Counted from the stretch's first letter, positions 28,651 through 45,713 are shown. The stretch: DNA of 64,000 nt from an uncultured Gemmataceae bacterium (GCA_937923405.1 CALDUY010000029.1:62001-126000), one strand, 5' to 3'. The notes: generated by a model not told the origin, from the letters alone. Numbers and translations: made by a program.

Positions 28651-29718
28651 TTAGTTGGGCATGGCACCAGCTTCACGAAGTCGCGTGCGCAGATAGCGTG
28701 CCCGAGCGGCATTGCGTTCCTCACCGTCCAACGTCGTGCCCATCAATTTTTGCAAATGAGCCGGTTGGGTGTGGATGAACAGTTCATTAACGGTGGGAAT
28801 GGTGATGTCGTCGATCAGCTTGAGGTTGATGCCCAGACGCACATAGGAGAGCAGTTCCATCGTCTCTTCCGAGGTCATCATGGTGGCTGAGCAGAGGGTG
28901 CCGTGGGCCCGAGAGATCTTGTCCTGTAGGCTCTGCTTGTTCTCGCGGAGCCAGGTTTGTCGGGCCATCCGCTCGTACTGCACGATCTCCAGGATGGTGG
29001 TCTGGATCTCTTCGAGGATGCGTGGCTCGCTCTTGCCGAGAGTGATCTGGTTGGAAATCTGGTAGAAATGGCCAGAAGCGCGGCTGCCCTCGCCGTAGAG
29101 TCCGCGGACGGCGAGATTGATCTTCTGGAGGGAGCGAAAGACTTTTTCGATCTGTTTTGTATGTTCAAGAGCGGGCAGGTGCAGCATGACGCTGGCCCGC
29201 ATGCCAGTACCCACGTTGGTGGGGCAGGCAGTCAAGTAGCCGAACTCCTCGCTGTAGGCGTAGGTGATCCGTTCTTCGAGCATGTCATCGACGCGGTCGA
29301 TCTCCTCCCAGGCTTCGTTGAGGGTGAAGCCGGCACGCATAACCTGCAGACGGAGATGATCCTCCTCGTTAACCATTAGGCTGACGGTTTCGTGTTCTCC
29401 CAAAGCCACACCGCGCGGCCCCTCCGAGGCGGCAAATTCACGGCTGATGAGTTGGCGTTCGACGAGGAACTGGCGATCCAAAGGCGACAAGCCAGGAACA
29501 TTGACGTAGCCTAGCTTGGGCGTGATGTCGAGTTTGCTAATGCGATCGCGCAGCAGTGACTCGATCTCGGCCTTTTGATAGCTGGAGGCACGATTGGTGA
29601 ACGGAAAGGCCGCTAAATTACGGGCGAGGCGAACCCGGCTGGAGATAACGATGTCGGACTCTGGGCCGCTGCCTCGCAACCACTCACCACTGGTATGAGT
29701 CAGGCTATCCAGATTCAT
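28651..29718 (-). CDS. mcsB: Protein arginine kinase McsB
   Basis: 355 residues from ATG 29718, overlapping the end of the upstream mcsA by 14 bases. The guanido-kinase fold shows DIVISSRVRLARNLAAFPF, the region GEHETVSLMVNEEDHLR, AYSEEFGYLTACPTNVGTG and RASVMLHLPAL, plus a C-terminal ISRAHGTLCSATMMTSEETM. McsB phosphorylates protein arginines to mark them for ClpCP degradation in Firmicutes, with McsA as activator. Length is normal. No ctsR or clpC is in this window, so the classical ctsR-mcsA-mcsB-clpC operon is not conserved here. Confidence 0.95.
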   Translation of the reverse strand: MNLDSLTHTSGEWLRGSGPESDIVISSRVRLARNLAAFPFTNRASSYQKAEIESLLRDRISKLDITPKLGYVNVPGLSPLDRQFLVERQLISREFAASEGPRGVALGEHETVSLMVNEEDHLRLQVMRAGFTLNEAWEEIDRVDDMLEERITYAYSEEFGYLTACPTNVGTGMRASVMLHLPALEHTKQIEKVFRSLQKINLAVRGLYGEGSRASGHFYQISNQITLGKSEPRILEEIQTTILEIVQYERMARQTWLRENKQSLQDKISRAHGTLCSATMMTSEETMELLSYVRLGINLKLIDDITIPTVNELFIHTQPAHLQKLMGTTLDGEERNAARARYLRTRLREAGAMPN

Positions 29719-30202
29719 CCGTGGTTTCCCTTTCTCGGAGCAAGTCTCGAATACGAGCGGCTTCTTCGTAGGCTTCGGCTTCCACGGCCGATTGAAGCTG
29801 CCGCCGCAACAGTGCAACCTCGACCAAGCGATCGGTAGCTGGAGACCCTTGCCGGGGCGTCTTGCCCTGATGGCGGGTCGAACGATGGATTCGCTGCAAC
29901 AGTGGGTCGAGTCCGCGTCTAAATACAGTGTAGTCGTGCGGACAGCCCAGCCGACCGACCCCGCGAAACTCCATATATTTGATACCACAAATCGGGCAGG
30001 CAAGGCGAGCTAACTCGTCCATCTCGGGGCCAAGATGCTGCCCAATCAGGGATTGCAAGATGGCCGGCAGGTTTAATTCTTGCTGCTTAACCAGCTGCTG
30101 AGCCTCGGCGCACGCCTGGCACAAGTGCAGTTCCTTCTTTTTATTATTAACAATGTCCGTCAGGTGAACGGTAGCCGGCTTGGAACAGAATTGACACTTC
30201 AC
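29705..30202 (-). CDS. mcsA: McsA-like zinc protein with UvrB/UvrC motif (adjacent to mcsB)
   Basis: 165 residues from the GTG at 30202, which places VKCQFC at the N-terminus and has AGGAAGG upstream; longer in-frame starts exist to 30325. Cysteine pairs C3/C6, C28/C31 and C69/C72 are in McsA positions. The fourth pair is altered: GCPHDY has one Cys (87) and a His where McsA of Bacillus has CxxC. The C-terminal UvrB/UvrC-type helix pair is RRQLQSAVEAEAYEEAARIR. McsA activates the arginine kinase McsB. The 14-base overlap with mcsB argues for coupled synthesis. Confidence 0.88.
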   Translation of the reverse strand: MKCQFCSKPATVHLTDIVNNKKKELHLCQACAEAQQLVKQQELNLPAILQSLIGQHLGPEMDELARLACPICGIKYMEFRGVGRLGCPHDYTVFRRGLDPLLQRIHRSTRHQGKTPRQGSPATDRLVEVALLRRQLQSAVEAEAYEEAARIRDLLRERETTDESG

Positions 30203-30272
30203 GCCAGCTGTCCTTCCTGAGTGTCCCGCCATGAGAGCCGTTCCACCAGGGCCGCTCTCAACCAAGCCCGCG

Positions 30273-30737
30273 TTAGTTTTCTTCCAGCTGGCGAATCCGA
30301 TCACGCAGCTGAGCGGCCTCTTCATACGCTTCTCGATGCACCGCCAGAGAAAGCTGTTTGCGCAGCTGAGTTAATTCCGCCTGCATTTGTTTACACTGTG
30401 GCAAGCGACGAGGAACCTTGCCACAGTGGCGCGTCTCGCCGTGGATGTTCTCCAGCAGTTGGAGCAACTCTTCGCGAAACACTTCATAGTCGTGCGGACA
30501 GCCCAGCCGACCGGTATTACGAAAATCGACGAACTTGATGCCGCAGGCTTCGCAAACTCGATTGGCCCCATCCAGATCGTCGTCGCGAATGGAGCCTTTA
30601 GCTGCAGCTTTTGGCTGGGGTTCGGAGAGATACTTGTGAGCACAAACCTCGCACAAATGTAACTCCTCGACATGATCTTCGCCGAGGATTTCCGTAATGT
30701 GCAACGAGGCGGCATTGGGACATTTCTGACACTTCAT
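30273..30737 (-). CDS. Second McsA-like UvrB/UvrC-motif zinc protein
   Basis: 154 residues beginning MKCQKCPNAASLHITEIL. Cysteine pairs C3/C6, C29/C32 and C62/C65 match McsA, and again the last site is GCPHDY (Cys 80) rather than CxxC. The C-terminal helices LRKQLSLAVHREAYEEAAQL form the UvrB/UvrC motif. It lies 70 bases upstream of the mcsA at 30202 on the same strand, so mcsA-like, mcsA and mcsB probably form one operon. The two McsA-like proteins share the layout but differ clearly in sequence, so the duplication is not recent. Confidence 0.88.
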   Translation of the reverse strand: MKCQKCPNAASLHITEILGEDHVEELHLCEVCAHKYLSEPQPKAAAKGSIRDDDLDGANRVCEACGIKFVDFRNTGRLGCPHDYEVFREELLQLLENIHGETRHCGKVPRRLPQCKQMQAELTQLRKQLSLAVHREAYEEAAQLRDRIRQLEEN

Positions 30738-30834: not shown

Positions 30835-32271
30835 TTAACGGAACACTCGTGCATCTGCCTCCTCGCTCTCATACCAACGATCCAGCACGACCAGATCGCG
30901 GGATTGTCCGCCCGGAGTGCCGAACGGCTCTGGCCAGAAGCGACGATGCAGTACTCGCACCCGCAGTCGTTTCGGGACATCGGCGAACTCGAACCTCTGC
31001 TGGTCGGGCTGATGCGGTATCAAGCGCATATCGCGGATCTCTAATGGCGTTTTCCAGAAAGCCACCGGAGCTTCCGGCTCATCGTTCGTCGGCCAGCGGG
31101 CATAGATTCGCCCGGCGCGACCAGCATAGCCTCCTGCCGCTGGAGGCAATCGCGGGCCACCGACTTGCGCCAACGCTTGATTCTTCTCATCGAACGCTTC
31201 GACGAGCAGCAGCAGTTGGCGATCGACAAATCCCGTGGGCACACGATGACCGACGTTCTCGGCGACGAGGCGCGTGGTCACTCGGCGGCCATCACGCTGC
31301 AGCGTTAGCCGTACCGACTGACGTAGCATGTCCAGCTGCGAGCCGTCCCAGAAGCGATGATTTCCCAGCGTCCAGGCATCGCGCGGAAGTCCGCCATGGC
31401 CTGGGGCGATGTTGCTCATCCGTCCGGTCGGCTTCATGTGGCAATGCTGACAGTGTAGACCGGCTCGGGCCGCTGGACTGTCCAGCCATTCGCTGTAGGT
31501 CGAGTAGACGCGCACGCCGAACAACACGCCTTCATGGCAGGCGGCACAGTAGCGGCTGTCACGGTAGAACGGCGAGTAGGCATCCTCGCCGCGATCTACA
31601 TCATCTAGTGGGCCAAAGAACAACTGGCCGTGTTTGGGCCGCAGTACGTCGAGCAGGAACCGGCCATGCGTCAAGCCGATCTCTCCCTGGCCTAGCTCAC
31701 GGATTTTGTGGCAATAGTCGCAGTGAACGCCGCGAGCGGCCACACCGCGCACCTCAGTCAGATCGAAGACGGCCTCACCGCGGGCCGTCGGCGCGTGACA
31801 GGAGGCGCACACCCCAGAGCCGTCTGGATGCTCCCGCAACAGATGAGTGTAGACTCCTTGGAATGAGGGCGAATTTACGGAGCGAGAATGTCGGCTACTT
31901 TGCCACTCTGAATAAATCTCTGCATGACAGTTGCCACAGCGCTGCTCGTCGGTCGGCTTGGGAGTGGGATCGATCCACTGGTAGTCGGGATAATCGGCGT
32001 CGGGCAAGCGCTGCAGGCGCAACGGTCTGCCGGGGTCGGCTCCGGCGATGAAAAAGTCCGGATGCCAGGCGGTCCAGCGTCGGCCCGGCGGGAGACGGAA
32101 CCACCCTGCCGAGTCGGTCAAGGTGTGCCGCTCCGTCGCTTGCAGGCGCACGAGAACGCCGGGCAAAGGTGGTTCGACGCGACCGAGCCAGTCCGTCGAG
32201 CGCGTCGTCGGCCACACGGCCACTGCCGCCAGACACAGCCCCAGCAAAGGCACAAGTCGGAGGCCGCTCAC
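30835..32271 (-). CDS. Exported pentahaem cytochrome c-type protein
   Basis: 478 residues. The N-terminus (LRLVPLLGLCLAAVAVWPTT) is a signal peptide. Five CxxCH haem-attachment motifs are visible: CGNCH near residue 114, then CASCH, CDYCH, CAACH and CQHCH, the last followed by MKPTGRM. The region before the haems (GVLVRLQATERHTLTDSAGWFRLP) looks like a carboxypeptidase-regulatory-like beta domain. The ~160 residues after the last haem motif are soluble and unrecognised. The architecture fits the cytochrome c554/hydroxylamine-oxidoreductase-like group of electron-transfer proteins in the periplasm. The GTG start overlaps the S9 peptidase stop in a GTGA, so translation is coupled. Confidence 0.88.
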   Translation of the reverse strand: MSGLRLVPLLGLCLAAVAVWPTTRSTDWLGRVEPPLPGVLVRLQATERHTLTDSAGWFRLPPGRRWTAWHPDFFIAGADPGRPLRLQRLPDADYPDYQWIDPTPKPTDEQRCGNCHAEIYSEWQSSRHSRSVNSPSFQGVYTHLLREHPDGSGVCASCHAPTARGEAVFDLTEVRGVAARGVHCDYCHKIRELGQGEIGLTHGRFLLDVLRPKHGQLFFGPLDDVDRGEDAYSPFYRDSRYCAACHEGVLFGVRVYSTYSEWLDSPAARAGLHCQHCHMKPTGRMSNIAPGHGGLPRDAWTLGNHRFWDGSQLDMLRQSVRLTLQRDGRRVTTRLVAENVGHRVPTGFVDRQLLLLVEAFDEKNQALAQVGGPRLPPAAGGYAGRAGRIYARWPTNDEPEAPVAFWKTPLEIRDMRLIPHQPDQQRFEFADVPKRLRVRVLHRRFWPEPFGTPGGQSRDLVVLDRWYESEEADARVFR

Positions 32272-34409
32272 TCGCCACCCGGAGTCACATACTTCGTCAG
32301 CCAGCCAAACACCTCCTTATGCCAGTATTCGCTGTTTTTGGGCTTGAGTACCCAGTGGCCCTCGTCGGGGAAGTTGATCATGCGGCTAGGCACTTTAAGC
32401 CTCTGTAATGTCGTGAATAGTTCGTGTCCCTGGCCAATGGGGCAGCGGAAATCGAGGTCGTTGTGGATCACCAACATCGGTGTTTTGAACTTGGCCAGGT
32501 TGGCCGCGTACTTGTGCGGCGAATGCTTCTCGTAAGAATGGCGATTCTTGCCCCAGGGTGGCCCACCATGCTCCCACTCATCGAACCAAAGTTCATCGGT
32601 GGTGGCGTACATGCTCTCGAAGTTCCAGACGCTACAGTGAGTGATGAGGCACTTGAATTTGCCGGTGTTGACAGCGAACCAGTTCATCATATAGCCGCCG
32701 AACGAGGCTCCCGCCGCCCCCATGCGGTTCTTGTCGATGTAGGGCTGACTCTCCAGATACTCGACGCCCTTCATCAGATCCTCGTAGCACTTGCCGCCCC
32801 AGTCGCCGGAGATCTCATCGACGTACTTCTGGCCAAAGCCGGTGCTGCCGCGCGGATTGGGCAGGGCGACGACGTAGCCCTGGGCGGCCCACAGCGACGG
32901 GCACCAGCGGAAACTCCAACCGTCCTCCCACGCCCCCTGGGGTCCGCCGTGGACCAGATAGGCCAGCGGCCATTTCAGCTTGGGATCGAAGCCCGGCGGT
33001 TTGAGGATCCACATCTGCATCGGCGTACCGTCGGCTCCTGGAATGGAGACGGTTTCTGGCTCAGGCAAGTTGAGGGATCCGAGAAGTCGGTTATTGGCCT
33101 TGCTCACGGGAGTGGGCGGCACAGGCTTGGCACTGCCCACGTCGGCCAGCGTGAAAACCTCCGGCGGAGCGGTCATGCGAGCCACGGTCAAGGCCAGTTG
33201 CCGACCACTGGCATCAACCGACAGTGAACCAACCACTCCTTTCTCGACCACCGGCTCGGTGATTTTCCCCTGCTCCGAAACGGCGAAAAGAGGTCGGCGT
33301 CCCTGAAAATCAGCGGCGAAGACGAACCCCGTCCCGGTCTTGCCCTGGTGCGTGACTTTGGCCCAGGCGTAGTCGTCGATGGAGCCGGCTGGCGACTTCG
33401 CCGCCACACGCGGTTTGCTCTGAAATGAGCCATCGGCGGCAGTGTCCACCACCATCAGCACCCACTGATCGGCCTCGTAGCCGGGCCGCTTCTGCGCCCG
33501 GTAGGCCAGCTTCTTGCCGTCCGGCGAGAACTTCGGAGCGCCATCGGCAGCGGCGTTGTCCTTGGTCAAATTTTCCGCCTCTCCACCGGCCACGGGAACA
33601 CGCCAGATGTCGTAATTGGTACTCCATGCCTCATCTTCCAGCGGTGGAGCGGTGAAGAGCAGATATTTGCCGTCCGGGCTGAAGGTGTGGTCGTCGCCCA
33701 GGGCGAAGGTCGTTGAGGTAGGCACGGCGTCGCGGTCGCCAGGGGTGACGTCGCGTGGCTCACCGGCCTTGCCGTTCTTGAACGGCATCACGAACAGATG
33801 TTGTCGCTTGTCTTCGACGTAGCTGTCCCAATGGCGGAAGAACAGACGGTTGAACACCTTGGCCTTAACGGGATTCTTCTCGATCTCTTCGAGCTTCTTC
33901 TTGTTCAGCGCGTCAGACTCCTTGAACGGTTTGTCGGAGAATTCTGGATAGACGGCGGAGACGAAGGCGATCATCGAGCCGTCCGGCGACCAGATGGCAT
34001 CGCTGGCGTCGGTGCTGAGAGAGGTTAGCTGGCGAGCCTCACCACCGTCCAGCGAGATGAGAAACAGTTGACTGCCGCCTGCTCGATTGGACTCGAACAG
34101 AAGGTGTTTGCCATCCGGACTCCAGCGCGGGTGGCGATCCTTCTTGCCGTCGGCGGTGAGCTGGCGCGGCTCGCCCTTGCCCACGGGAGCGATCCAGATC
34201 GACGAAGTGATCTTGTTCTCAGCGAGGTTGACCTGACCGACGACGTAGGCGATGTGCTTGCCGTCCGGACTGATTTGGGGATCGCTAATCCGCTTGAAGC
34301 GGAACAGATCCTCCAGTTTCATCGGACGGCGTTTGTCCTGGGCCATGGCCGACGAGGTGGTGAGGCCAAGCAGCACACAAGCGAACAGCAGAGCTAGCAA
34401 GCGTTCCAT
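32268..34409 (-). CDS. Exported S9 family prolyl oligopeptidase-like serine peptidase
   Basis: 713 residues from ATG 34409, with AAGGA seven bases upstream; the open frame continues to 34490. The signal peptide is LLALLFACVLLGLTTSSAMA. A beta-propeller of WD40-like PD40 repeats covers about 35-420 (ISPDGKHIAYVVGQ; RWSPDGKHLLFESN; WSPDGSMIAFVSAV). The alpha/beta hydrolase domain has Ser in GAAGASFGGYMMNW near 569, Asp in HNDLDFRCPIGQ near 652 and His in DEGHWVLKP near 684. This is the acylaminoacyl-peptidase/DPP-type subfamily, cleaving short peptides outside the cytoplasm. It is the promoter-proximal gene of a two-gene unit with the pentahaem cytochrome. Confidence 0.95.
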   Translation of the reverse strand: MERLLALLFACVLLGLTTSSAMAQDKRRPMKLEDLFRFKRISDPQISPDGKHIAYVVGQVNLAENKITSSIWIAPVGKGEPRQLTADGKKDRHPRWSPDGKHLLFESNRAGGSQLFLISLDGGEARQLTSLSTDASDAIWSPDGSMIAFVSAVYPEFSDKPFKESDALNKKKLEEIEKNPVKAKVFNRLFFRHWDSYVEDKRQHLFVMPFKNGKAGEPRDVTPGDRDAVPTSTTFALGDDHTFSPDGKYLLFTAPPLEDEAWSTNYDIWRVPVAGGEAENLTKDNAAADGAPKFSPDGKKLAYRAQKRPGYEADQWVLMVVDTAADGSFQSKPRVAAKSPAGSIDDYAWAKVTHQGKTGTGFVFAADFQGRRPLFAVSEQGKITEPVVEKGVVGSLSVDASGRQLALTVARMTAPPEVFTLADVGSAKPVPPTPVSKANNRLLGSLNLPEPETVSIPGADGTPMQMWILKPPGFDPKLKWPLAYLVHGGPQGAWEDGWSFRWCPSLWAAQGYVVALPNPRGSTGFGQKYVDEISGDWGGKCYEDLMKGVEYLESQPYIDKNRMGAAGASFGGYMMNWFAVNTGKFKCLITHCSVWNFESMYATTDELWFDEWEHGGPPWGKNRHSYEKHSPHKYAANLAKFKTPMLVIHNDLDFRCPIGQGHELFTTLQRLKVPSRMINFPDEGHWVLKPKNSEYWHKEVFGWLTKYVTPGGE

Positions 34410-34497
34410 GGAGCATCCTTCATACAAGTAATGATTCGGAATCCGGATGGAGTTCACTTTGAGGGCATCAGACGACGATGGCAAGAGCAAGACGGGT

Positions 34498-37400
34498 TCA
34501 ACTCCGCGCCGAAGCCGTGCTGCCCGGAGCCAGGCGAGGAGAGCGATTCCACAGCCAACGCACCAAAAGCAGCAGTCGACTCAGCAAGCCTAACCCCGCC
34601 ACGACGAGAATGGGCACAGTCGGTCCGGTGAACTGACCCAGGCCAAACGCCAACACTAGAAGTATCTCGGGCCAGAACCAGCGGGCCCCGGTTCGTAGCA
34701 CCGTGGAAATACTGATGGTCCACAGAGCAATCAGGGCGAACACCCAGCCTGCGGTGAACAGGACGGCCTGTTGGGTCTGACTGCGCGAGCTGGGGATGAG
34801 TCGGACACTCAAGGTGACTTCGGGTCGATCCCTGCGCCAGCTGAACGGTGTTCCCAAAGGACAAGCCGTCTCGACCGACGGTTCACTCAGCAACGGTGGG
34901 AAATCGCCGGCCTGTTGTTGCAACTCGGACAACCAACGAGACAGAGCAAGCCCTTCTGGTCCCAGGGCACGCTCGCCCGCAACACCGGTCTGGATCGCCA
35001 ACCGAGCCAAGGCCAACGAACGAGCCAGCCGTTGCCCAGCCGCCATCGCCTCCGCCGTCCGCTGCGAGGCGGTCAACTCGCGGAATAGCTCCAGTTCGAG
35101 ACTAGCGCGATGCAATTCGAGAACGGCTCGACGAGTCGCGCCGCTGCCTAGCCGAGTGCCTCCCGTGGACGACGACACCTCCCAGCCAGGCGGGATCTGC
35201 ACAGTCCACAGCAGCGGTCCGGGTTTGGCTCCGTCGAAAACCGGCGGTGTCAAGTCGGGCTGATCGAGCGATTCGCGGGCGGGATCGAAGCGATACCGAA
35301 TCACCACTTCGCGGATCCCTAAAGGAGCAGAAAAAGGCAGCGCAACCACGGAGCCAGTCAACGTAGTGGCTGCCGCGTCATCGACTCGGGCCTGGGCCGA
35401 CTCGACTCCTGCCGGTAGGCGGATCCGCAGTTCCGCTGGTGAGTCGTGCCGGATCCAATAGCGGGCCTCATGGCTCCAATGGTTGCCATCGGGCACCAGC
35501 GAGCGGACCTCGCCTAGGAGCAGTTGCACCGGCGCGAAGCTGGTCGAGGGGCGCGGCTCAACCCGCAGGCTCCACCTCGGTTCGCTCACCTGCCAGATCG
35601 ACTTGTCTCCTTGCGTGCGAGCCTCCACCCCAAACGCATTTTCGATCGACAGACTCTCGTCCAAATCGAGCAGCAACGTAGTTTTGGCTCCCTGGACGTG
35701 CAGATCGGGCAACGACACCGGGCCTTGAAAGGGCAGGCGGCCACGTACCGTGAAGCGGAAAGGATCGGCCTCTCCTGGCGATAGTTCCAGGATCCAGGAA
35801 CGTTCGCGACGGTTGCCCTCCTGGCGATGTTGTTCGCGGCGTCGGGTCTCGCTTCCGGCTGGCGTCTCCAACCAGGCGTCACCGTCCCAGTCGCTTAGGA
35901 GCACACTCAGAGAACGAGATTCGCTCAGGCCGCGCAACTCGCCCCGCGCGGTGAAGACTAGTTCCTTGTCCTCGCGCTGCGCCTGAAGCTGTATCGTGGC
36001 GTTGGGAACCGGTCCGGGTTGTACCAGGATGTTGCCGGCATAGCCCGGCTGCGAAGCCACCAAGACCAATTCGCTAGGGCTGCTGGGGCGATCCGGCGTG
36101 AGTTGCCGCATCTCCTGAGCCTCCAAGAGCAGCCCCGGCGCGGGTCGGAGTATCAGCCGCGCTCGCGACGACGTGGCCGAGCGCACCTGGAGGGAAGGAA
36201 GCTGAAAATAAGGAGTAACAGGCGTCTTTTTATCGTCTTTTGTAGTGGTGAGCGGCAGCCAGCCGATCAGATCGAACTGGGTCGAGCTAGTCGTTTTTTC
36301 CAGCCAGACCAACAGTCGTGTGCCGGACTGACTCCAGCGTCCGACCTCCGGCCCGGTGACGTTGGCAATGGTCCAGGGCTGTGGAGACTGTAAGTCGATC
36401 TCGATCACGGAAAGATCGCGAGTCGGTGCGGACAGTTCCAGACGCGCCGTCACCTCAGCCCGGTTGGGGCCGATCAGGAACGACAGTTCCTGCTTGGCCT
36501 CGATCTGCTGCCGAGCTGCCGAAAGGGCTAGGGACAACTCGGGCGGTTGACGTGGATCGCGACGAAAGCTACTGGCGTAGTCCAGCGAGTTGGCCGCCGG
36601 TCGCGTGCTGCCCGTCCAAAACGGAGCGAACTCGGCGGGCTTTAACCCCGACAGACGAAACCAGTTGGTTCGCTCGACACGCAGCCCCTGATGCCGATAA
36701 GCAAGGTATCCCGGAATTTTCGGATCCGGTTCGCCGCGCGGTCGAGGCAAGGGCAGCAGCACGGACGCGCCCCAGGGACCAGTTGGCACCAACTCCAGGG
36801 TGATCTCGATTTCGCCGGAGACCGGCACGGGAAAATCGAGGCGAACCGTTCGTTCCTCACCGTCGTTTTGCGTTGCCCAGTTGGTCAGTCGAATAGGATC
36901 AACAAGCGCTTTCAACTCTCCAAATAGTGATTTATCGTCGCTGGGTCGCCGGGCCTGCGCCGAACGAATCTCCAGAGAGGGGGGCACGTCCAGGAACAAC
37001 GAGGTGACTGCTCCCTCGCGAACCGTGTAACGGAGCAAGGCGGTGAGCAAGCTGGCATCGATCCGAAGATCCCAGAGGTAGGCTTCGCGGAACTCCAGAC
37101 GTGGCGGCTTGGCAGCACGCGGTTCCTGATACCAGCGAATCTGCAACGGCGACGAGATCGCCCCGAGTTCGACCTCTAGCCGCCGCGTCGTCCCTTGTTC
37201 GACCAGCCGTTGGGCCCCGTGCTTGATGAAGACGCGAGGATAGGTGGCTCCGTCGGGCACCTGGAAGTTGACCTGACTCTGGACCAGAGACGGCACACTG
37301 CAACGGACCTGACGTGTGCCCTCATCCTCGGAGGTCCGAGTTAACGCCGTCTGAAAGCGCAGCTCGATGTTGTGTCGGCCCGGCTCACTTAGTCGCAACA

Positions 37401-40400
37401 GATAGCCATTCCGCGGCGCGGGAAGTGCGGTTGGCCAGGCGCGCTTGCCGTCGACTAGCACGTCACCGATGAGTTGCACCTCGTCGAACGGTAGCTCCAG
37501 CAGGGTGGCTCCGTTGGCAAAGGAGTAGGCTTGCAAGGTGGCGGTGAACTCGGCACGATCGTTGACCACTCTTCCTTCGTAGCTGGCGTTGAGCAGGACG
37601 GCCCCGGCGGTTGCCATTGCCTTGGGACGAGCCAACTCCCGTAAGCGTTCCAGCAGGGCGGGGCGGACCAACACTGTGCCCGTGGGATCCTCACCGTCGG
37701 GCAACAACAAAACGAGGTTGTCGTCTGGGTCGGTCGGCTGGCCGGGACACACGGCAACGACGACGAGTACCGCCGCGGTGGTGGCCACGATCGGTTTGCG
37801 GATGGCCCAGACGAGAAAGGCAATGAAGGTCAACGCCAAGGCCAAAAGCAGTGGCCACCAAGCCAATGGCACCAGCGCCGAAGGCAGCCAGGCAACGGCT
37901 AGACCGGCACCGGCCAAACTGAGCAGCAGCACTTGCCAATACGAGTTAAGGGATCTTCGATAGAGAAAAAGTAGTCCCGCCGCCAGTACTCCCGCCAGCA
38001 GCAGACCACCCGCGGTCACCCAGTTCGCTCGCACCACGACGAGAGATTCTTCCGACGTTCCCGCGACCGGTATCCAGGTGGTCCAACCAGTCAGATCTTC
38101 AGCAGGACGGAACAGGCCCGGTTGCGTCGGCCTGGTTCGGCCTGAGCTGAGCCATTCCACCGCAGTGACGTATCTTCCGGTGACGTCCCGGCCATGCACG
38201 GCAGCATCCGTGATGGCGTTGTGCAGTGCCGCAGGCACCGTCGTCGAGAGGTCGCGCAGTTGCTCCCGAGTCGTCAAAATGACGGCGTTGGGCAGCGGCA
38301 ACAGGATGAGCGATTGTTCCTCCCAAGGAGCCAAGGCATCCTGTTCGTCCAGGCGAGCGCGTAACTGCACCCGAGTCGCCAGGGTGTAGCCACCCCGTCC
38401 CAGTGCCAGGCGATCGATCAAAACCGGAACCGATACGCCGAGGGTTTCACCTACGAGTTGTTCGACGAGCAGGGCTAAGGCAAGCGAGGTACCGCCATGC
38501 TCGGCACACAAGGCGGCACAGGCATCGATCACCGTTCGCCGAGTTGCTTCTCGGGAATCGACCGTTTGGCTGCTCCACGCTGGCCCTAGTTGAAACAGAT
38601 CCAGCAAGCGCGACGTGGTCGGACGCGGCCCAGCATCATGACGGCCATCGGGCAACAGCAGGGTGCGGCCATCTCTCAACGGCAACAATCCCGGAGGCAA
38701 CAGCCAGCGGCGTTCGAAGGCCGCCGGCGCGACGGGAAGTTCGGGGGCGGGAGCGTGCAGAACGAAGCCGATTCCGTCGCCGGTCGTCGACGTGGAGTAC
38801 AGCAACTCATACAGGACAAGTTCCTGATTGAGCGGCACGGGCAGGGCGACCGTGTATTGCTCGTCGAGCCTGGCTCCGTGTTCCAGCCATTGTCCGGCGA
38901 TGGCGACGGCGAGCAGGTTGCTCCTAGGGGGCAGGCGGATCGGCAAGGTACGCTGGGGCCAGCGCGCCAGACGGAAGCGAAGATGATGGTACAGTTCGCC
39001 GTTGGTGGTCAGCCAGCTGGTCAGTCGCGTTCGTTCGATGGCCGCATCTTCGCGCGGACCAGGACTGCTGGGACGATTTTCTAACACTAGACGTGGCATC
39101 TGCCCAGTGTAGCGATAGCCGCGACGATCCGACGAAGAGCGCGGCAGCTCGCGCAGGCCACTTCGCTCGACAACGCCCACGTCGGCATCGTTCAGCTGAA
39201 TGGTCAATTCGCCCTGTTGACGCACTGCTCCGGGCACGGTGACAAACGGCACCTCCCAAAGATTGCCGTCACGTGGCACGAGCAAACGGGTAGCTCGTAA
39301 AGTGGTCGATTTGCGAGCCGACAGGGGGCGATCGAACCACAAGCGCCAGGCCGAGCCAGCAGGACGGGCGGCGAGTAAAGTCAGAGTGTGCAGAGGCGAA
39401 CAGGGATCGAGAGCCGCCAGGGCGACCGAGGCATCGATAGCGGGCAGCGGCTCGCTGCGGATCGGCGGGCCAGTAGCGTTGCCGGTGCGCCACTCCCAGA
39501 GCGGCCCTTCCCCATCGAGCAGGCGAACGTCTACATAAGCCGGCGTGCCGCTCTCGCCTTCGACGGTAAGGCGAGTATCCAGCACGGCTCGGCGACCGGC
39601 GAGCAACAATTCCGAAGCGATCCGTGCCAGCAAGCGCGGTGGGCGTCCCTCGATTCGCAGCCTTCCAGTAAGACTTTCTCCACGAAACGGATAGTAATAA
39701 TCCGGATTAGACTTGCCCCATGGTCCCCCTGCGATTGCCTCTCCAGGGACAAAGGAACTGGAGACGCTGGCTCGGTAGGTTTGTTCGTCGAACTCGATGG
39801 CCAGGCCACCCTCGCGATAGCGCGCACCAAGCGGCACGACGTCAGGGAAGGGCCACTCTCCGGTTGGGCCGTCGGTACGGCGGAGTCGCACCACCAGTGA
39901 CGTGGTCGCCTCGCCGGCCCCCATTCGCAGAGGGCGACGCAGTTCGACGAGCAGCCGCGTGCCACGCTTGTCAGAGCGCACGCCCCAGCTGCGCAGAAGG
40001 TCCGTCGGCGTCAGCTCGACCGTATCGACCTCCCAGGCTGGAGGCAGTCGTAGCGGTAGTTGAAACAGCTGGCCCTGGCGTAGTTCATAGTCGATCTGGG
40101 TGACCAGCTCCATGCCGTCGCTGGCCAGTTTCCACCAAGACTGCTGCCCGGCGCGAAACTCGACACCGCCGGCCTGGATCTGTCCACCGGGGCGGCGCGG
40201 TCGGCCCGCAGCGGTGGCCAATCCGCCTCCTTGCAACGTCAGTCGCCGCAGCGTGATGCCGGCCTCGGCTTCGGGAATCAGCGACGAGTCGATCAGCCGA
40301 TAGTCCCCCGGTTGCCAGGACAGCAAGCGTAGCTCCGGATGCAGCCATAGTTCCAAGGTTTCGCCACGCGGCACGGTGCCCAACAGTTGCAGCGAGGGAC

Positions 40401-41469
40401 TGGTCCACGGCACGACAATAGCTCGGTTGGGTTGCGGCTCGGTGGGCAGCTCGCTGGCCAGTGGTGCCACGCAGCGAATCTCGATCACGCCCTCACGCAA
40501 GGGTTTACCCAGGCGAATCATCAGACGGCCCGGTTGTTGGGCGGCGACTGGCAGTGTATCCCAGCGTTCGATCTCTGGAGCCTGCACCTCGACGGGACGC
40601 AAGAGTGGGTCGTATTCGCAGACCAGCTCGCGGACATCCTGGCCCAAAGCCTCGACATTGAACAGGCTGGTCGTCTCCAGGCCGTCGGGGGAGAGTCGCT
40701 GCGTCATTTTGTGCCAACTTAAGACGAGAGAAGATCCTTCGGTCTCGGCACGACGCAGCAACAAGGTCAATTGTGACTTGCCGCCGATCGGCAATCGCCA
40801 CAATTGCCGGTTCGGGGTGGCCGTGGGATGCGGTCCGGAAACCAGCGACCCATCGATCAACGACAGCAGCCGATCCGCCGGCAGCTCGACCTCCAGTGAA
40901 CCAGCAGGACACTCCGGCAAGCGTAGATCGACGAGCAAGCCTTCCGGGCGTGGCTCGGTGCGTGCCGACCACTCGAAGGTAACGGTCTGTTCCCCGGGCT
41001 GATCGAGGTACAACGCTAGTGAGCGGCCTTTGCCGTCGCCTTCACTGAAGGTGGTCAGTATGGCGTCACGGTTATCGAGACGCGGCTGCTTGACGGCCAG
41101 ATTGAAGCTAGCTCCCTCACCTGTGAGTTTCAGCAGAGCCGGGGCAGGGCCTTGCAACGAGACGCGCCATTGCGCCGTACCGACCAGGGCCGAACTCTCA
41201 GAGAGACTGGCTCGATAGCGAGCCTCGATCAATTTAGGAGCAGAGAGGGCCTTTTTACCTCGGGCGGCTTCGCGGACCAACTGCTCGAACTGGGAACGTG
41301 GCAGGCGAGTCAGCACCCCTTCCTTGAGCCGTTTCAGTTCCTCCGACCACCGCGACTGGGGAAGCAGCACACGACGAAGCGGCAACGGATCCGGCTCCTC
41401 GGAAACGGCTCCCGTGGCGACAGCCCCCAGCACGACCGTGAACAATAACCCCAGAATCGCGCGCGTCAT
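34498..41469 (-). CDS. Giant exported/membrane protein of unknown function (2323 aa, two fused units)
   Basis: 2323 residues, not matched to any family I know. The signal peptide is AILGLLFTVVLGAVATGAVSE. Hydrophobic helices cluster twice: about 1147-1250 and about 2230-2310. Long beta-rich stretches between them alternate short hydrophobic strands with Pro/Gly turns (LRLPPAWEVDTVELTP, FNVEALGQDVRELVCEYDP). A similar module begins each half: SQFEQLVREAARGKK at about 59-73 followed by EARYRASLSESSALVGTAQW, and VLVRPALLERLRELARPKAM at about 1266-1285 followed by LNASYEGRVVNDRAEFTATL. So this protein looks like two tandem units, each an extracytoplasmic region plus membrane bundle. Its ATG overlaps the upstream gene stop (ATGA). 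Sequence suggests an envelope protein; no enzymatic motif was found. Confidence 0.85.
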   Translation of the reverse strand: MTRAILGLLFTVVLGAVATGAVSEEPDPLPLRRVLLPQSRWSEELKRLKEGVLTRLPRSQFEQLVREAARGKKALSAPKLIEARYRASLSESSALVGTAQWRVSLQGPAPALLKLTGEGASFNLAVKQPRLDNRDAILTTFSEGDGKGRSLALYLDQPGEQTVTFEWSARTEPRPEGLLVDLRLPECPAGSLEVELPADRLLSLIDGSLVSGPHPTATPNRQLWRLPIGGKSQLTLLLRRAETEGSSLVLSWHKMTQRLSPDGLETTSLFNVEALGQDVRELVCEYDPLLRPVEVQAPEIERWDTLPVAAQQPGRLMIRLGKPLREGVIEIRCVAPLASELPTEPQPNRAIVVPWTSPSLQLLGTVPRGETLELWLHPELRLLSWQPGDYRLIDSSLIPEAEAGITLRRLTLQGGGLATAAGRPRRPGGQIQAGGVEFRAGQQSWWKLASDGMELVTQIDYELRQGQLFQLPLRLPPAWEVDTVELTPTDLLRSWGVRSDKRGTRLLVELRRPLRMGAGEATTSLVVRLRRTDGPTGEWPFPDVVPLGARYREGGLAIEFDEQTYRASVSSSFVPGEAIAGGPWGKSNPDYYYPFRGESLTGRLRIEGRPPRLLARIASELLLAGRRAVLDTRLTVEGESGTPAYVDVRLLDGEGPLWEWRTGNATGPPIRSEPLPAIDASVALAALDPCSPLHTLTLLAARPAGSAWRLWFDRPLSARKSTTLRATRLLVPRDGNLWEVPFVTVPGAVRQQGELTIQLNDADVGVVERSGLRELPRSSSDRRGYRYTGQMPRLVLENRPSSPGPREDAAIERTRLTSWLTTNGELYHHLRFRLARWPQRTLPIRLPPRSNLLAVAIAGQWLEHGARLDEQYTVALPVPLNQELVLYELLYSTSTTGDGIGFVLHAPAPELPVAPAAFERRWLLPPGLLPLRDGRTLLLPDGRHDAGPRPTTSRLLDLFQLGPAWSSQTVDSREATRRTVIDACAALCAEHGGTSLALALLVEQLVGETLGVSVPVLIDRLALGRGGYTLATRVQLRARLDEQDALAPWEEQSLILLPLPNAVILTTREQLRDLSTTVPAALHNAITDAAVHGRDVTGRYVTAVEWLSSGRTRPTQPGLFRPAEDLTGWTTWIPVAGTSEESLVVVRANWVTAGGLLLAGVLAAGLLFLYRRSLNSYWQVLLLSLAGAGLAVAWLPSALVPLAWWPLLLALALTFIAFLVWAIRKPIVATTAAVLVVVAVCPGQPTDPDDNLVLLLPDGEDPTGTVLVRPALLERLRELARPKAMATAGAVLLNASYEGRVVNDRAEFTATLQAYSFANGATLLELPFDEVQLIGDVLVDGKRAWPTALPAPRNGYLLRLSEPGRHNIELRFQTALTRTSEDEGTRQVRCSVPSLVQSQVNFQVPDGATYPRVFIKHGAQRLVEQGTTRRLEVELGAISSPLQIRWYQEPRAAKPPRLEFREAYLWDLRIDASLLTALLRYTVREGAVTSLFLDVPPSLEIRSAQARRPSDDKSLFGELKALVDPIRLTNWATQNDGEERTVRLDFPVPVSGEIEITLELVPTGPWGASVLLPLPRPRGEPDPKIPGYLAYRHQGLRVERTNWFRLSGLKPAEFAPFWTGSTRPAANSLDYASSFRRDPRQPPELSLALSAARQQIEAKQELSFLIGPNRAEVTARLELSAPTRDLSVIEIDLQSPQPWTIANVTGPEVGRWSQSGTRLLVWLEKTTSSTQFDLIGWLPLTTTKDDKKTPVTPYFQLPSLQVRSATSSRARLILRPAPGLLLEAQEMRQLTPDRPSSPSELVLVASQPGYAGNILVQPGPVPNATIQLQAQREDKELVFTARGELRGLSESRSLSVLLSDWDGDAWLETPAGSETRRREQHRQEGNRRERSWILELSPGEADPFRFTVRGRLPFQGPVSLPDLHVQGAKTTLLLDLDESLSIENAFGVEARTQGDKSIWQVSEPRWSLRVEPRPSTSFAPVQLLLGEVRSLVPDGNHWSHEARYWIRHDSPAELRIRLPAGVESAQARVDDAAATTLTGSVVALPFSAPLGIREVVIRYRFDPARESLDQPDLTPPVFDGAKPGPLLWTVQIPPGWEVSSSTGGTRLGSGATRRAVLELHRASLELELFRELTASQRTAEAMAAGQRLARSLALARLAIQTGVAGERALGPEGLALSRWLSELQQQAGDFPPLLSEPSVETACPLGTPFSWRRDRPEVTLSVRLIPSSRSQTQQAVLFTAGWVFALIALWTISISTVLRTGARWFWPEILLVLAFGLGQFTGPTVPILVVAGLGLLSRLLLLVRWLWNRSPRLAPGSTASARS

Positions 41470-44400
41470 AGCGGTCGTCCCGTGCGTTCCACACTACTGC
41501 CCATCGGACGAGGCACATCGACGGTCGAAGGTTCGACCGGCGGTCGGGCTGGTTCGGGCCGCGATAGCGAGGAGCCTTGCTTAGAACGACTGAAGCTCGG
41601 CAGAAAAACCAGCTGCCGACGATAGCGTTCGTGCAACCCCCACTGCACCAGACCCAGTACGGCCAGCACGAGCACGCCAGGTATGGCCCCGTAGGCCAAC
41701 TCACTGGCCAGCAGTGGCCAGAGAAAGGCCACCACTAGCACCAGCACTAGCACCGTCAGCAACAGCAGCCAAGCACTGGTTCGCACCTGCCCGCCAGGCA
41801 TGGGGATCGACAACCACCACAAAGCGAGGCCCAGCAGCGTGACGGTCAACGAACAAAGCAACAGCCAGACCTGTCGCGGGGCGTGAACCAGCTGAAGGAT
41901 AGTGGCTCCGTCATGCCAGAGGACGAGTGAAGGAGCCTCATCCTCCGTTGGGCGCGGGGGGAATTCGCCGGCAAACCAGCGTTCCAACTCGGCGGTCCGA
42001 ATGGCGGACTCGGGAGCCGGCAGCCAGCCGCGCCAGCCCCAACGCAGTGGTGCCGATGGTCCGGGTTCGGGAGCCAACACAATTCGGTTAGCGGGAAGGC
42101 GAATTTGCCAACGTGTCGGAATTTCCGCCAGGTCGCCGAGGAGGCGCGGCAGAACTAGCGGCGTCGTCAGCGTCGTGGCCTGAACTCTTCCCGGATCCAA
42201 CCGATAGGAAATATCCAAAATAGCCGGCTTCCGTACTAGGTCTGGAGCCAGACGCAGTCGCACGATCCGGCCGCGCTGTTCGGCTCGCTCGGTAGGGACT
42301 GGCTCGGGGCTTACCTGTCGACCGTCCAATTTGACTTCCAGGCCGATCATCGACGATGGAGCCGGCAGCTCTATTTCCAAAGAGCGCGCGGCCAGGCGGG
42401 CCACTCGGTAGCTGACGTGGTACGACTGCATGCCATTGGCCGCTACCTGCACTCGGGCCAGGGCACGTTCTAGTAGCGCCGGCGTCGCTGGTTCTCCGTA
42501 CCCCAGATCGAGCATCAATGGCTGATCGACCCGTTCGGAGCGTACCACGAGAACCGGCAGTTGCGACCGGCCAGCCACGATCTCAATGTTCTGCTCACTC
42601 CAGCCAGGAGCCGCCAACGCAAACGGCCCGCCCTCGCTCCAGAGCCGAACCCGCGTCTCGCCGCGCGTCGTCTGTTCCGGCACAACCAGGGGTATGGAAA
42701 CCGGTTCCCCCAAGGGCACACTAGCCAGCGGCACCGAGTATTCCAGGATTAGCAACGGCTGACGAGCGTCGGCGGGAAGGATGGTGACGGTCTCCTTAGA
42801 GCGGCCCTCGACAAGGCGTCCGCCTTCACGCAGTTGCACTCGCCCCGCTAGCGCTGCTGGAAGTTTCAGATTCAGCCGAGACGAGGCTTGTGGCAAGGTA
42901 TAGCGCAGCTCGTGACGAATGCGGGCCTCGGCGGGCAGCAGGGTGACATCGATCAGCGACGTCACTTGGACCGGCGGACGGTACGGTTGCCAGGACAGTT
43001 CCAGCGTCTCCGGCGCGGCGCGGGGATAACGCCAGGTCAGTTCGTGTGTGGTCTGTCGCGTCAGCTCCAATCCGGGAACAGCCATCGAGGCCACTAGCTC
43101 GACCATCGGCGGCACCTGTGCGGTGATCGTGCCGTCCTGCTCTAGCGTACCAATCGGACGCGGTAAGCCGAGTATGACTTTATCTGGATTTTTCAGATCT
43201 ACAATAGAAGAATAATTAGCGTCAACTCGAACAGAGAACGGCGTGAGGACGGCATCGGGACCGCCTCGGGACAGGCGAAACTCGACGGTGCGTGTGGCCG
43301 GGTCATACTGCACACCGCGCACTCGATCCGGCAGTTGGAACCCGCTTTCTTCGTTGTAGGTACAGCCCTCGGGGAGGCGGACGGAGAAGCGATCGACCTC
43401 GGCCCAGCGTGGCGTAACCGTCAGACTCGACTGCACCTGCCAGCGTGGCCCCTCGGGCGAATCCGTCGTCAGCACGAACAGATGAGCGGCGCGGGTTTTG
43501 ATCTGACCGCGAACACTTTCGGCCTCGATCTCCAGCCAGGACGGCGAACCCCGCCAGCTGCCCCCACCGGGACCGTAGCGAAACGCCGCCGCCAGATTCG
43601 GCTCGCGTCGCAACTCCTCGTCAGTAGCCCCGCGACGAGTCAGGTCAGCATAGGCGGTGAACTCTAGGTGCCAGTCCGGCAGTGAATTGGTCACTAACAG
43701 CGTGCCGATCTGTCGAGCCGCCCCGACGACGGCGAAGGGCCCGATGCCCACACCTTTTCCTGAACCGGGTTTCGGTGCAGCCTGACTGTGCAGGATCGTC
43801 ACCGTCAGCGGTGCGGCGCTCGGCTCCTTCAGACGAATGGTTCGTAACGACACCAGCTTTTGATCGGCGACGGCGATGTTCTGAACCCGTGCTTCATCCT
43901 CGGGACTGACCTTGATCTGGGCGTGGACCGGCACCAACAGTTGCCATTGATTCGTCTGACCGCCTCGGGTTCGCAGCACCAGTTTGGCCTCGGTGGACAG
44001 TTCCGGCTGGTCTTCTCGTCGCTCGACCCGAGTAAGGATCTGTCCCTCGGCTTCGAGAACCGCCGTCGAGGCCGCCGCTCCCGCCCCGCGCCAGGCCAGC
44101 TCGAGCTTCTCGACAGGGCCAAGCCCACCCGATAGTCGATTTCCTTGCAGCGACAATAGCGATTCGGCGAGCGGTTTGCCTCCCAGGCGAATCTCCCGTG
44201 CCCCAGCGGGTAGTTCTAACTCTAGTGTGGTAATGGCGGCGCGGGGCAGATCCAGCGCTAGACTGCTGCCAGAACTGGTCGTGTTTACCGGCAGGACGAA
44301 TTCCAGGGTCAGCTGATGATCGCCTGGCTTGTCGATCTCGACCACGAACCCCTCCTCGTCGCTGGCCCGTCCTCGCGTCGCGGGACTCCGCAAGCGCGGG

Positions 44401-44855
44401 GTGCGACCCTCCAGCGATACTCCCGTGGCGATCCCCGGACTACAGGCCAACCGCACGCTTTCGTTGGCTTGCTCGGTCTCGAACTCGAACAAGGCTGACA
44501 GCGTGGCCAGATTGCCTTCGATCTTGCCTTTCAGCTGCACTCGCGAAGGCGTGCGGACACTCGGTCGCTCGACTTGCTTTTTCAGCCGCTCTAGTTCGTC
44601 CAACAGCGACTTGTACTTCTCCGGCGTCAGGACAAACGCTCCGGGAGGCAGTTTCATCAAGGCGTCGCGGAAGTTGTCATAGACGGCAATAATCGATCCC
44701 GGGGGCAACGTGGTCTCTTTCGCTAGTTTGTTGGCCTTGTCGCGAGACTCCGGCTTGTCCTGAGTCTGTTCCTCGGCGCGCGGTTCCGCCGCCAGGGCCA
44801 CCAGTCCCACCAGCAGTAACATCAGCGTGATACCACGGATGACAGTCGCGTGCAA
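41466..44855 (-). CDS. Large exported/membrane protein of unknown function (1129 aa, single unit)
   Basis: 1129 residues from a TTG at 44855, with GGAGG about eight bases upstream. The signal peptide is ITLMLLLVGLVALAAEPRA. After a charged linker come VLTPEKYKSLLDELERLKKQ (75-94) and LKGKIEGNLATLSALFEFET (108-127), which match in layout the unit starts of the 2323-residue protein. The middle is beta-rich, with many amphipathic strands. The C-terminal membrane bundle (about 985-1080) includes VWLLLCSLTVTLLGLALWWL and LASELAYGAIPGVLVLAVLG, followed by a Pro-rich cytoplasmic tail. The gene overlaps the next by four bases. Function is unknown; a role at the cell envelope is inference. Confidence 0.85.
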   Translation of the reverse strand: MHATVIRGITLMLLLVGLVALAAEPRAEEQTQDKPESRDKANKLAKETTLPPGSIIAVYDNFRDALMKLPPGAFVLTPEKYKSLLDELERLKKQVERPSVRTPSRVQLKGKIEGNLATLSALFEFETEQANESVRLACSPGIATGVSLEGRTPRLRSPATRGRASDEEGFVVEIDKPGDHQLTLEFVLPVNTTSSGSSLALDLPRAAITTLELELPAGAREIRLGGKPLAESLLSLQGNRLSGGLGPVEKLELAWRGAGAAASTAVLEAEGQILTRVERREDQPELSTEAKLVLRTRGGQTNQWQLLVPVHAQIKVSPEDEARVQNIAVADQKLVSLRTIRLKEPSAAPLTVTILHSQAAPKPGSGKGVGIGPFAVVGAARQIGTLLVTNSLPDWHLEFTAYADLTRRGATDEELRREPNLAAAFRYGPGGGSWRGSPSWLEIEAESVRGQIKTRAAHLFVLTTDSPEGPRWQVQSSLTVTPRWAEVDRFSVRLPEGCTYNEESGFQLPDRVRGVQYDPATRTVEFRLSRGGPDAVLTPFSVRVDANYSSIVDLKNPDKVILGLPRPIGTLEQDGTITAQVPPMVELVASMAVPGLELTRQTTHELTWRYPRAAPETLELSWQPYRPPVQVTSLIDVTLLPAEARIRHELRYTLPQASSRLNLKLPAALAGRVQLREGGRLVEGRSKETVTILPADARQPLLILEYSVPLASVPLGEPVSIPLVVPEQTTRGETRVRLWSEGGPFALAAPGWSEQNIEIVAGRSQLPVLVVRSERVDQPLMLDLGYGEPATPALLERALARVQVAANGMQSYHVSYRVARLAARSLEIELPAPSSMIGLEVKLDGRQVSPEPVPTERAEQRGRIVRLRLAPDLVRKPAILDISYRLDPGRVQATTLTTPLVLPRLLGDLAEIPTRWQIRLPANRIVLAPEPGPSAPLRWGWRGWLPAPESAIRTAELERWFAGEFPPRPTEDEAPSLVLWHDGATILQLVHAPRQVWLLLCSLTVTLLGLALWWLSIPMPGGQVRTSAWLLLLTVLVLVLVVAFLWPLLASELAYGAIPGVLVLAVLGLVQWGLHERYRRQLVFLPSFSRSKQGSSLSRPEPARPPVEPSTVDVPRPMGSSVERTGRPL

Positions 44856-45104: not shown

Positions 45105-45713
45105 CTAACTGAGGGTCTGCAGAACCACGCCGGAGAGTTCGCCCAGATCGCTCGGCGGAGGGGCTTCTAGCGGTGATCGACTTCGCGAACGCTCGGACGC
45201 CACCAGGAAGCCGAACTCGTCGGCGAGTCGATAGATCGCTCGGCTCGAGTCAGGATTGTCCACAATCAGCAGATTCACCCCAGCCTGACGCAGCATCAGC
45301 GCCTCGGACTCGTCGAGGGAGGAGACGGCTCGACTGCTCAGTGGCAGCTTCTTGCCGTTGAGCTTCAACCCTTCGCTGGTCCATTGCAGGCGTCTCAGCC
45401 CGTGTCGCACCTCGACGGTATCGACGCGCTGTTCGTCCTGCCACAGTTCCAGCCGACCCAGGTAGAGATGCGGCGAGAGCGGCTCCCACAGGCTCGCCTC
45501 GGGAATAAGAATCCGCGCCGACAGCGCGTCCAACGGGCGAAGGGGATAGGCCACTTCGATGGTGGCAGCGAAGCGGCAGCGCGGCCCCATGCAGCGACCA
45601 CGTAACTGCGTTTTCGAGTCGCAATACTCCGGAATAATCTGGACACGTAGTTCTGCCGAGGCGGGAACCAAGTTGTGATCGATCAGCATCACCTGGACAA
45701 TGCGATTGCTCAT
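45105..45713 (-). CDS. GH2-like beta-sandwich fragment lacking the catalytic barrel
   Basis: 202 residues without a signal peptide. The centre resembles the glycoside hydrolase family 2 sandwich and its lead into the barrel: EVRHGLRRLQWTSEGLKLNGKK is here split as VRHGLRRLQWTSEGLKLNG, then a polar linker, and ALMLRQAGVNLLIVDNPDSSRAIYRLADEFGFLVASE, the first helix-strand-helix of a GH2 barrel. The chain stops before the position of the catalytic Glu residues. N-terminally, MLIDHNLVPASAELRVQIIP is a strand-rich domain with three nearby cysteines (CDSKTQLRGRCMGPRC). It starts 10 bases past the queA stop. It may be a binding protein or a decayed enzyme. Confidence 0.6.
   Translation of the reverse strand: MSNRIVQVMLIDHNLVPASAELRVQIIPEYCDSKTQLRGRCMGPRCRFAATIEVAYPLRPLDALSARILIPEASLWEPLSPHLYLGRLELWQDEQRVDTVEVRHGLRRLQWTSEGLKLNGKKLPLSSRAVSSLDESEALMLRQAGVNLLIVDNPDSSRAIYRLADEFGFLVASERSRSRSPLEAPPPSDLGELSGVVLQTLS

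Follow-up and report, generated by a model that had tools for sequence, protein, structure and literature searches.

Three paralogous arrays of beta-sandwich domains encoded by an overlapping gene pair point to an undescribed envelope complex in Planctomycetota

The window analysed here (the whole stretch of 64,000 nucleotides, from an uncultured Gemmataceae bacterium, GCA_937923405.1 CALDUY010000029.1:62001-126000) carries on its minus strand two giant open reading frames, which we call genes A and B. Gene A starts with a TTG codon, has a GGAGG-type ribosome site in front of it and encodes 1129 residues. Gene B starts with ATG and encodes 2323 residues, and the two genes are joined at CTATGACG by an exact 4-nt ATGA overlap (coordinates are collected in Table 1). 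The initial annotation of the locus had described both reading frames, with these sizes and this joint, and had given each product a signal peptide; our analysis confirms the gene pair, and hydrophobic signal-like segments are present at residues 5-23 of A and 4-22 of B. The same annotation placed membrane bundles at the termini of the products. Such bundles are indeed found at the end of A and at the end of B, but B also has a central one, at the junction of the two units (B1 and B2) that it contains.

Table 1. Features of the gene pair and of its immediate neighbours (positions in the window; residue numbers are those of the product of A or B)
Feature	Position	Strand	Basis
Gene A = unit A: signal peptide, then five beta-sandwich repeats, a bundle of three TM helices and a cytoplasmic tail	41466..44855	-	
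Gene B = fusion of units B1 and B2, 2323 aa; 4 nt ATGA overlap with A	34498..41469	-	
Signal-peptide-like N-terminus of A	44787..44855	-	hydropathy; helix 3-22 in model
Amphipathic helix of A, rich in Leu, VLTPEKYKSLLDELERLKKQ, residues 75-94	44574..44633	-	
First beta domain of A (approx. 100-262)	44070..44558	-	
Second beta domain of A (approx. 263-437)	43545..44069	-	
Third beta domain of A (approx. 438-611)	43023..43544	-	
Fourth beta domain of A (approx. 612-776)	42528..43022	-	
Fifth beta domain of A (approx. 777-959); profile weakly similar to VIT	41979..42527	-	
Three-helix membrane bundle of A (994-1083)	41607..41876	-	
Predicted cytoplasmic tail of A; clade-conserved ...GSSLxR...EPSTVDxP motif	41469..41606	-	
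Unit B1 (residues 1-1255)	37705..41469	-	profile comparison; separate gene in L067, L068
Counterpart in B1 of the Leu-rich helix, SQFEQLVREAARGKK, residues 59-73	41251..41295	-	
Unit B1, five beta domains (approx. 78-1088)	38206..41238	-	
Three-helix membrane bundle of B1 (approx. 1143-1223)	37801..38043	-	
Fourth hydrophobic segment, ahead of B2 (approx. 1223-1245)	37735..37803	-	hydropathy
Unit B2 (residues 1256-2323)	34498..37704	-	profile comparison; separate gene in L067, L068
Counterpart in B2 of the Leu-rich helix, VLVRPALLERLRELARPKAM, residues 1266-1285	37615..37674	-	
Unit B2, five beta domains (approx. 1287-2168)	34966..37611	-	
B2 helical hairpin (approx. 2111-2161)	34987..35139	-	
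Three-helix membrane bundle of B2 (approx. 2227-2308)	34546..34791	-	hydropathy + model
S9 prolyl-oligopeptidase with signal peptide, directly downstream of the pair; neighbour, no proven part	32268..34490	-	
202-aa GH2-like protein directly upstream of A; neighbour, no proven part	45105..45713	-	

The two products had been proposed to hold three copies of one architecture. We cut gene B at residue 1255 and compared the profiles of the three units, built from orthologue alignments, all against all. Every pair gave a full-length diagonal match, A with B1 at E=9e-39 over 1014 columns, A with B2 at E=2e-39 and B1 with B2 at E=1e-35, while reversed profiles gave E of at least 0.003 and column-shuffled ones E of at least 0.67; the similarity is therefore not due to chance. 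This comparison, chosen beforehand as the one that could show the units to be unrelated, found them to be homologous end to end. The layout shared by the unit starts, a Leu-rich helix followed by a strand pair (at residues 75 and 108 of A, and at 59 and 82, and 1266 and 1293, of B), on which the proposal had been built, is borne out by the same alignments, in which all three helices and all three strand pairs are in register: A80 pairs with position 60 of B1, and A120 with position 98 of B1 and position 54 of B2 (B2 numbering).

In two planctomycete lineages distant from the window's the three units are three consecutive separate genes, of 1128, 1237 and 1138 aa (locus L067, genome G117) and of 1202, 1419 and 1470 aa (L068, G069), each of which matches all three unit HMMs (E <=4e-25). 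At another locus, L075, a fourth unit accompanies A and B. In trees of all units, A, B1 and B2 stand apart for most lineages, some units being misplaced, probably through repeat-register errors in the alignment.

Each unit also contains a five-fold internal repeat, which the initial annotation had missed. Comparison of the units with themselves gave strong off-diagonal matches at offsets of about 165-190 residues, and when the fifteen domain slices were compared with one another, 47 of 105 pairs matched at E<1e-4, whereas no pair out of 105 did so after reversal. Divergence is greatest in domains 1 and 5, which nevertheless match the corresponding domains of the other units (E 4e-22 to 4e-11). 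In the AlphaFold models A and B2 are strings of beta-sandwiches followed by three membrane helices, with an additional helical hairpin in B2; confidence is moderate (pLDDT 70.9 for A and 72.5 for B2, pTM 0.33-0.35), and the low pTM makes the relative placement of the domains in these models unreliable. That each unit is a tandem row of about five beta-sandwich domains, each of ~165-190 aa, followed by three transmembrane helices, is well supported, A and B together comprising about fifteen copies of one domain.

With a cleavable signal peptide and three helices, the C-terminus of each unit would be cytoplasmic. Since three helices would leave the end of B1 in the cytoplasm, B would need a further export signal for B2. 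The fourth hydrophobic segment of B, seen at 1223-1241, is best read as the relic internal signal peptide of a fused gene, which would return B2 to the periplasm, a reading suggested by the standalone B2 genes of L067 and L068, which start with a hydrophobic segment of their own.

No Pfam or NCBIfam family was found above cut-off in A or B, nor any Pfam family above cut-off in 30 orthologues of A, and no PDB chain passed the cut-off by sequence (phmmer search with B, profile search with A). A match to a characterised family had been named in advance as the result that would speak against the novelty of the proteins; it was sought and none above cut-off was obtained, and the statement that they belong to no named family holds at the level of sequence. 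In the predicted models the repeated domain resembles the sandwiches of ribophorin I/Ost1, of VIT domains and of M1 N-domains, a likeness of fold and not of family. Foldseek with the model of A placed ribophorin I/Ost1 chains at ranks 1-3 (E 1e-8 to 2e-7, prob 1.0), with superpositions of TM 0.43-0.54 on the target and rmsd 5.8-6.6 A over ~425 columns; the best two-domain structural match of A has E=1e-8 and TM 0.54 on a 428-residue target. With the model of B2, integrins, Ost1, ITIH1, LTA4H and M1 peptidase were among the matches, Ost1 being one of the best, and two independently predicted units both match Ost1 by fold. ITIH1, a protein with a VIT domain, is matched by B2 in its sandwich fold (prob 1.0), and LTA4H/M1 in the N-terminal saddle beta-sandwich fold (prob 1.0), at fold level only.

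The models of A and B2 share with Ost1 tandem beta-sandwich domains beyond a membrane anchor. Unlike Ost1, which has two such domains, the units have five and a three-helix anchor, are triplicated and have no OST genes beside them; searches for an Ost1 sequence match gave no Pfam hit and no OST chain at E<=10 in the PDB-chain profile search. We also built VIT and M1-N profiles from planctomycete loci and ran 30 domain tests. Domain 5 of A matched the VIT profile with Prob 68%, E=5e-5 and 26% identity over 84 columns, the other unit domains matching it more weakly, and domain 3 of B1 matched the M1-N profile with Prob 68% and E=5e-5, against a best value of 0.18 for reversed controls compared with whole units. 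Given 30 tests, these profile links are suggestive and no proof of family membership. For VIT (PF08487/PF13757) there was no hit above the Pfam gathering score in A, in B or in the 30 orthologues of A, and no VWA domain was hit in cis in A or B. The likeness to VIT lies in the sandwich fold and in the VWA-bearing anti-sigma genes that adjoin unit genes in some lineages; unlike ITIH and the bacterial VIT-VWA proteins, however, the units form a tandem array with a membrane bundle and no cis VWA. They differ from M1 aminopeptidase and LTA4 hydrolase in having no catalytic domain.

A protein search matched gene A in 35 of 59 related genomes, and a profile search in at least 97 of 294 planctomycete genomes. 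The latter figure is a lower bound, since scoring was confined to two candidate places in each genome and missed L175, a locus found from the VWA side. A relative of gene B follows A in nearly all loci with a long enough contig, so that the two are conserved as an ordered pair, with the ATGA overlap in 17 of 88 loci. Among the planctomycete genomes searched the pair is phylum-wide; plasmids gave no match to the family, and literature searches on the gene pair, on planctomycete ECF-VWA systems and on Ost1/VIT fold relations returned nothing on the gene pair. A 3688-aa reading frame at L109, considered as an A+B fusion, is actually B with a spurious 5' extension, A being a separate reading frame there. 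Several genomes from another family, in the same class as the window's genome, have a further A-B locus that is paralogous to the first (L120-L127); next to it lies an inositol-monophosphatase-like gene, accompanied in some genomes by a UppP-like gene or by trypsin-like proteases.

In the window's own family the gene pair mostly stands alone, and its commonest neighbour is a secreted S9 peptidase downstream. The 202-aa protein encoded upstream of A has GH2 Ig-like domains as its sole match (PF00703, E=2.8e-5) and lacks a catalytic barrel, and its homologues of 235-350 aa lie upstream of A in seven close relatives; we rejected this gene and the upstream QueA as partners, their association being local synteny of close relatives. 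Elsewhere in the window lie an ORF for a McsB-type protein arginine kinase (28651-30737, minus strand; above cut-off for NCBIfam NF002194 at E=9e-135), directly upstream of which is a tandem pair of overlapping McsA-like activator ORFs (E=2e-32 and 2e-27, below cut-off), a multihaem c-type cytochrome (30835-32271, minus strand; Cytochrome_C554, PF13435, E=5e-8), a multi-PAS/GAF hybrid histidine kinase (50826-54098, minus strand) and a Ser/Thr kinase with TPR repeats (54095-55861, minus strand), which overlaps the adjacent hybrid histidine kinase by 4 nt.

Other lineages have a recurrent operon partner. In a wider sample of the phylum, a VWA/YfbK gene lies directly upstream of the unit genes in 14 of 60 loci, preceded by an ECF sigma gene in 9 of these 14 (several of the remaining loci begin where the contig ends), and L175 is a fifteenth such locus. 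The neighbour protein has an N-terminal anti-sigma-like region, usually one transmembrane segment and a C-terminal vWF_A+VWA+YfbK_C part, and the DxSxS MIDAS motif is intact in 14 of the 15 unit-linked VWA proteins. These proteins fall into two tree groups, one linked to A-B and the other to a single gene of two units; the latter arrangement, without A, accounts for 8 of the 15 loci. At L133 the neighbour is a zf-HC2+VIT+VWA anti-sigma-like protein, adjoining an ECF gene. From the frequency of PF12034 genes (one to a few per genome in 155 of 294 genomes) we estimate chance adjacency of units and VWA at about 1e-3 per locus. The ECF-VWA pair is also widespread alone: 14 of the 15 loci fetched from the VWA side (L174-L188) are without units. 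In contrast to the 15 linked loci, the system is absent at the window, where no ECF/anti-sigma genes lie in the same operon; the window's genome has no PF12034 protein and one VIT protein elsewhere, and most Planctomycetia loci have no ECF/VWA neighbour. Signalling is therefore not the sole role.

We propose, with a probability of roughly 0.4, that the units make up an undescribed, planctomycete-wide envelope complex with three paralogous subunits: an array in the periplasm, anchored in the inner membrane, that is linked to envelope signalling in some lineages. The anatomy of the array is well supported, and its mechanism is what we infer from it. Co-conservation, fixed order and recurrent translational coupling suggest that the three unit proteins form one complex; signal peptides, membrane bundles and predicted periplasmic domains suggest that this would be a complex of the envelope. 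The arms of A, B1 and B2 would project from the inner membrane next to one another, and the array may sense or organise the envelope. In many lineages it would be the partner of an ECF sigma factor and of a membrane anti-sigma factor with an extracytoplasmic VWA (MIDAS) domain. VIT and VWA pair in cis in known proteins; this pairing and the operon structure suggest that the sandwiches could engage the anti-sigma VWA domain in trans. In the window's lineage, where the ECF/VWA link is absent, the complex would act, or be regulated, independently. Counting against the proposal are this absence, the ECF-VWA pairs that occur without units, the eight linked loci that lack A, the moderate confidence of the models and a likeness to Ost1, VIT and M1 that goes no further than the fold.

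A bolder version, to which we give rather little credence, is that the three arrays bind the transmembrane anti-sigma VWA in trans and report the state of the envelope to the ECF sigma factor, a planctomycete-specific arrangement that some lineages later uncoupled, fusing two of the three genes. In the window's lineage the units may just as well serve as a scaffold or in quality control, independently of an ECF switch. Contacts among A, B1 and B2, or with VWA, are putative.

Alternatively, the concave sandwiches might capture polypeptides close to the membrane, whether nascent, unfolded or glycosylated, and pass these clients to neighbouring proteases, as a periplasmic holdase or quality-control platform, which we consider unlikely. 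Ost1 and M1 N-domains flank substrate sites, and the fold matches of A to ribophorin I/Ost1 and of B2 to M1/LTA4H speak for such a role, as does envelope-stress-type ECF regulation in other lineages. The secreted S9 peptidase occupies the same place directly downstream in L044, L046, L050 and L059 (five loci with the window), and trypsin-like proteases, recognised by sequence only, lie beside the second paralogous locus in three genomes. These protease neighbours are, however, lineage-restricted and could be chance synteny; HExxH or any other catalytic signature is absent from A and B, and no OST catalytic subunit was recognised among the neighbourhoods scanned.

It is similarly doubtful that the units are passive structural tethers, in which long, rigid beta arrays with an inner-membrane anchor would span or organise an enlarged periplasm, the paralogues serving as parallel struts. 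Such a role fits the great length of the ectodomains, with five sandwiches repeated in tandem in each unit, and the confinement of the membrane bundles to one end. Conservation across the phylum, the many loci without a conserved partner gene and the enlarged periplasm of planctomycetes (PMC11958385) fit it as well. A tether, however, leaves the recurrent ECF/anti-sigma-VWA operons unexplained, and no peptidoglycan- or outer-membrane-binding domain was found. Long matches of low similarity between integrin alpha ectodomains and A or B2 (TM about 0.1) and a sub-threshold hit to pAdhesive_11 (E=0.005) speak for surface-exposed, integrin-like adhesins acting in attachment at the cell surface. This reading is very improbable, since the integrin superpositions have an rmsd above 20 A, as expected for any string of sandwiches, the models contain sandwiches and transmembrane helices only and not the integrin head-plus-legs (beta-propeller and Ig-like domains), the three C-terminal helices are of the inner-membrane type, with no LPxTG, and the pAdhesive_11 hit, which we rejected as below cut-off, occurs in only 1 of 30 orthologues.

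If the units do form the envelope complex that we favour, the threefold level of duplication, of domain, of unit and of gene, is a clean case of a large complex built from one fold, and the lineages with separate genes make its stoichiometry and order testable. The ECF/anti-sigma-VWA operons offer a testable regulatory hypothesis. The likeness of fold to ribophorin I deserves attention given the claims of eukaryote-like features in planctomycetes, there being no sign of common descent with OST. The planctomycete envelope is one of the least understood among bacteria, and a 10-kb gene pair, conserved across the phylum and without an annotated family, provides a concrete handle on it.
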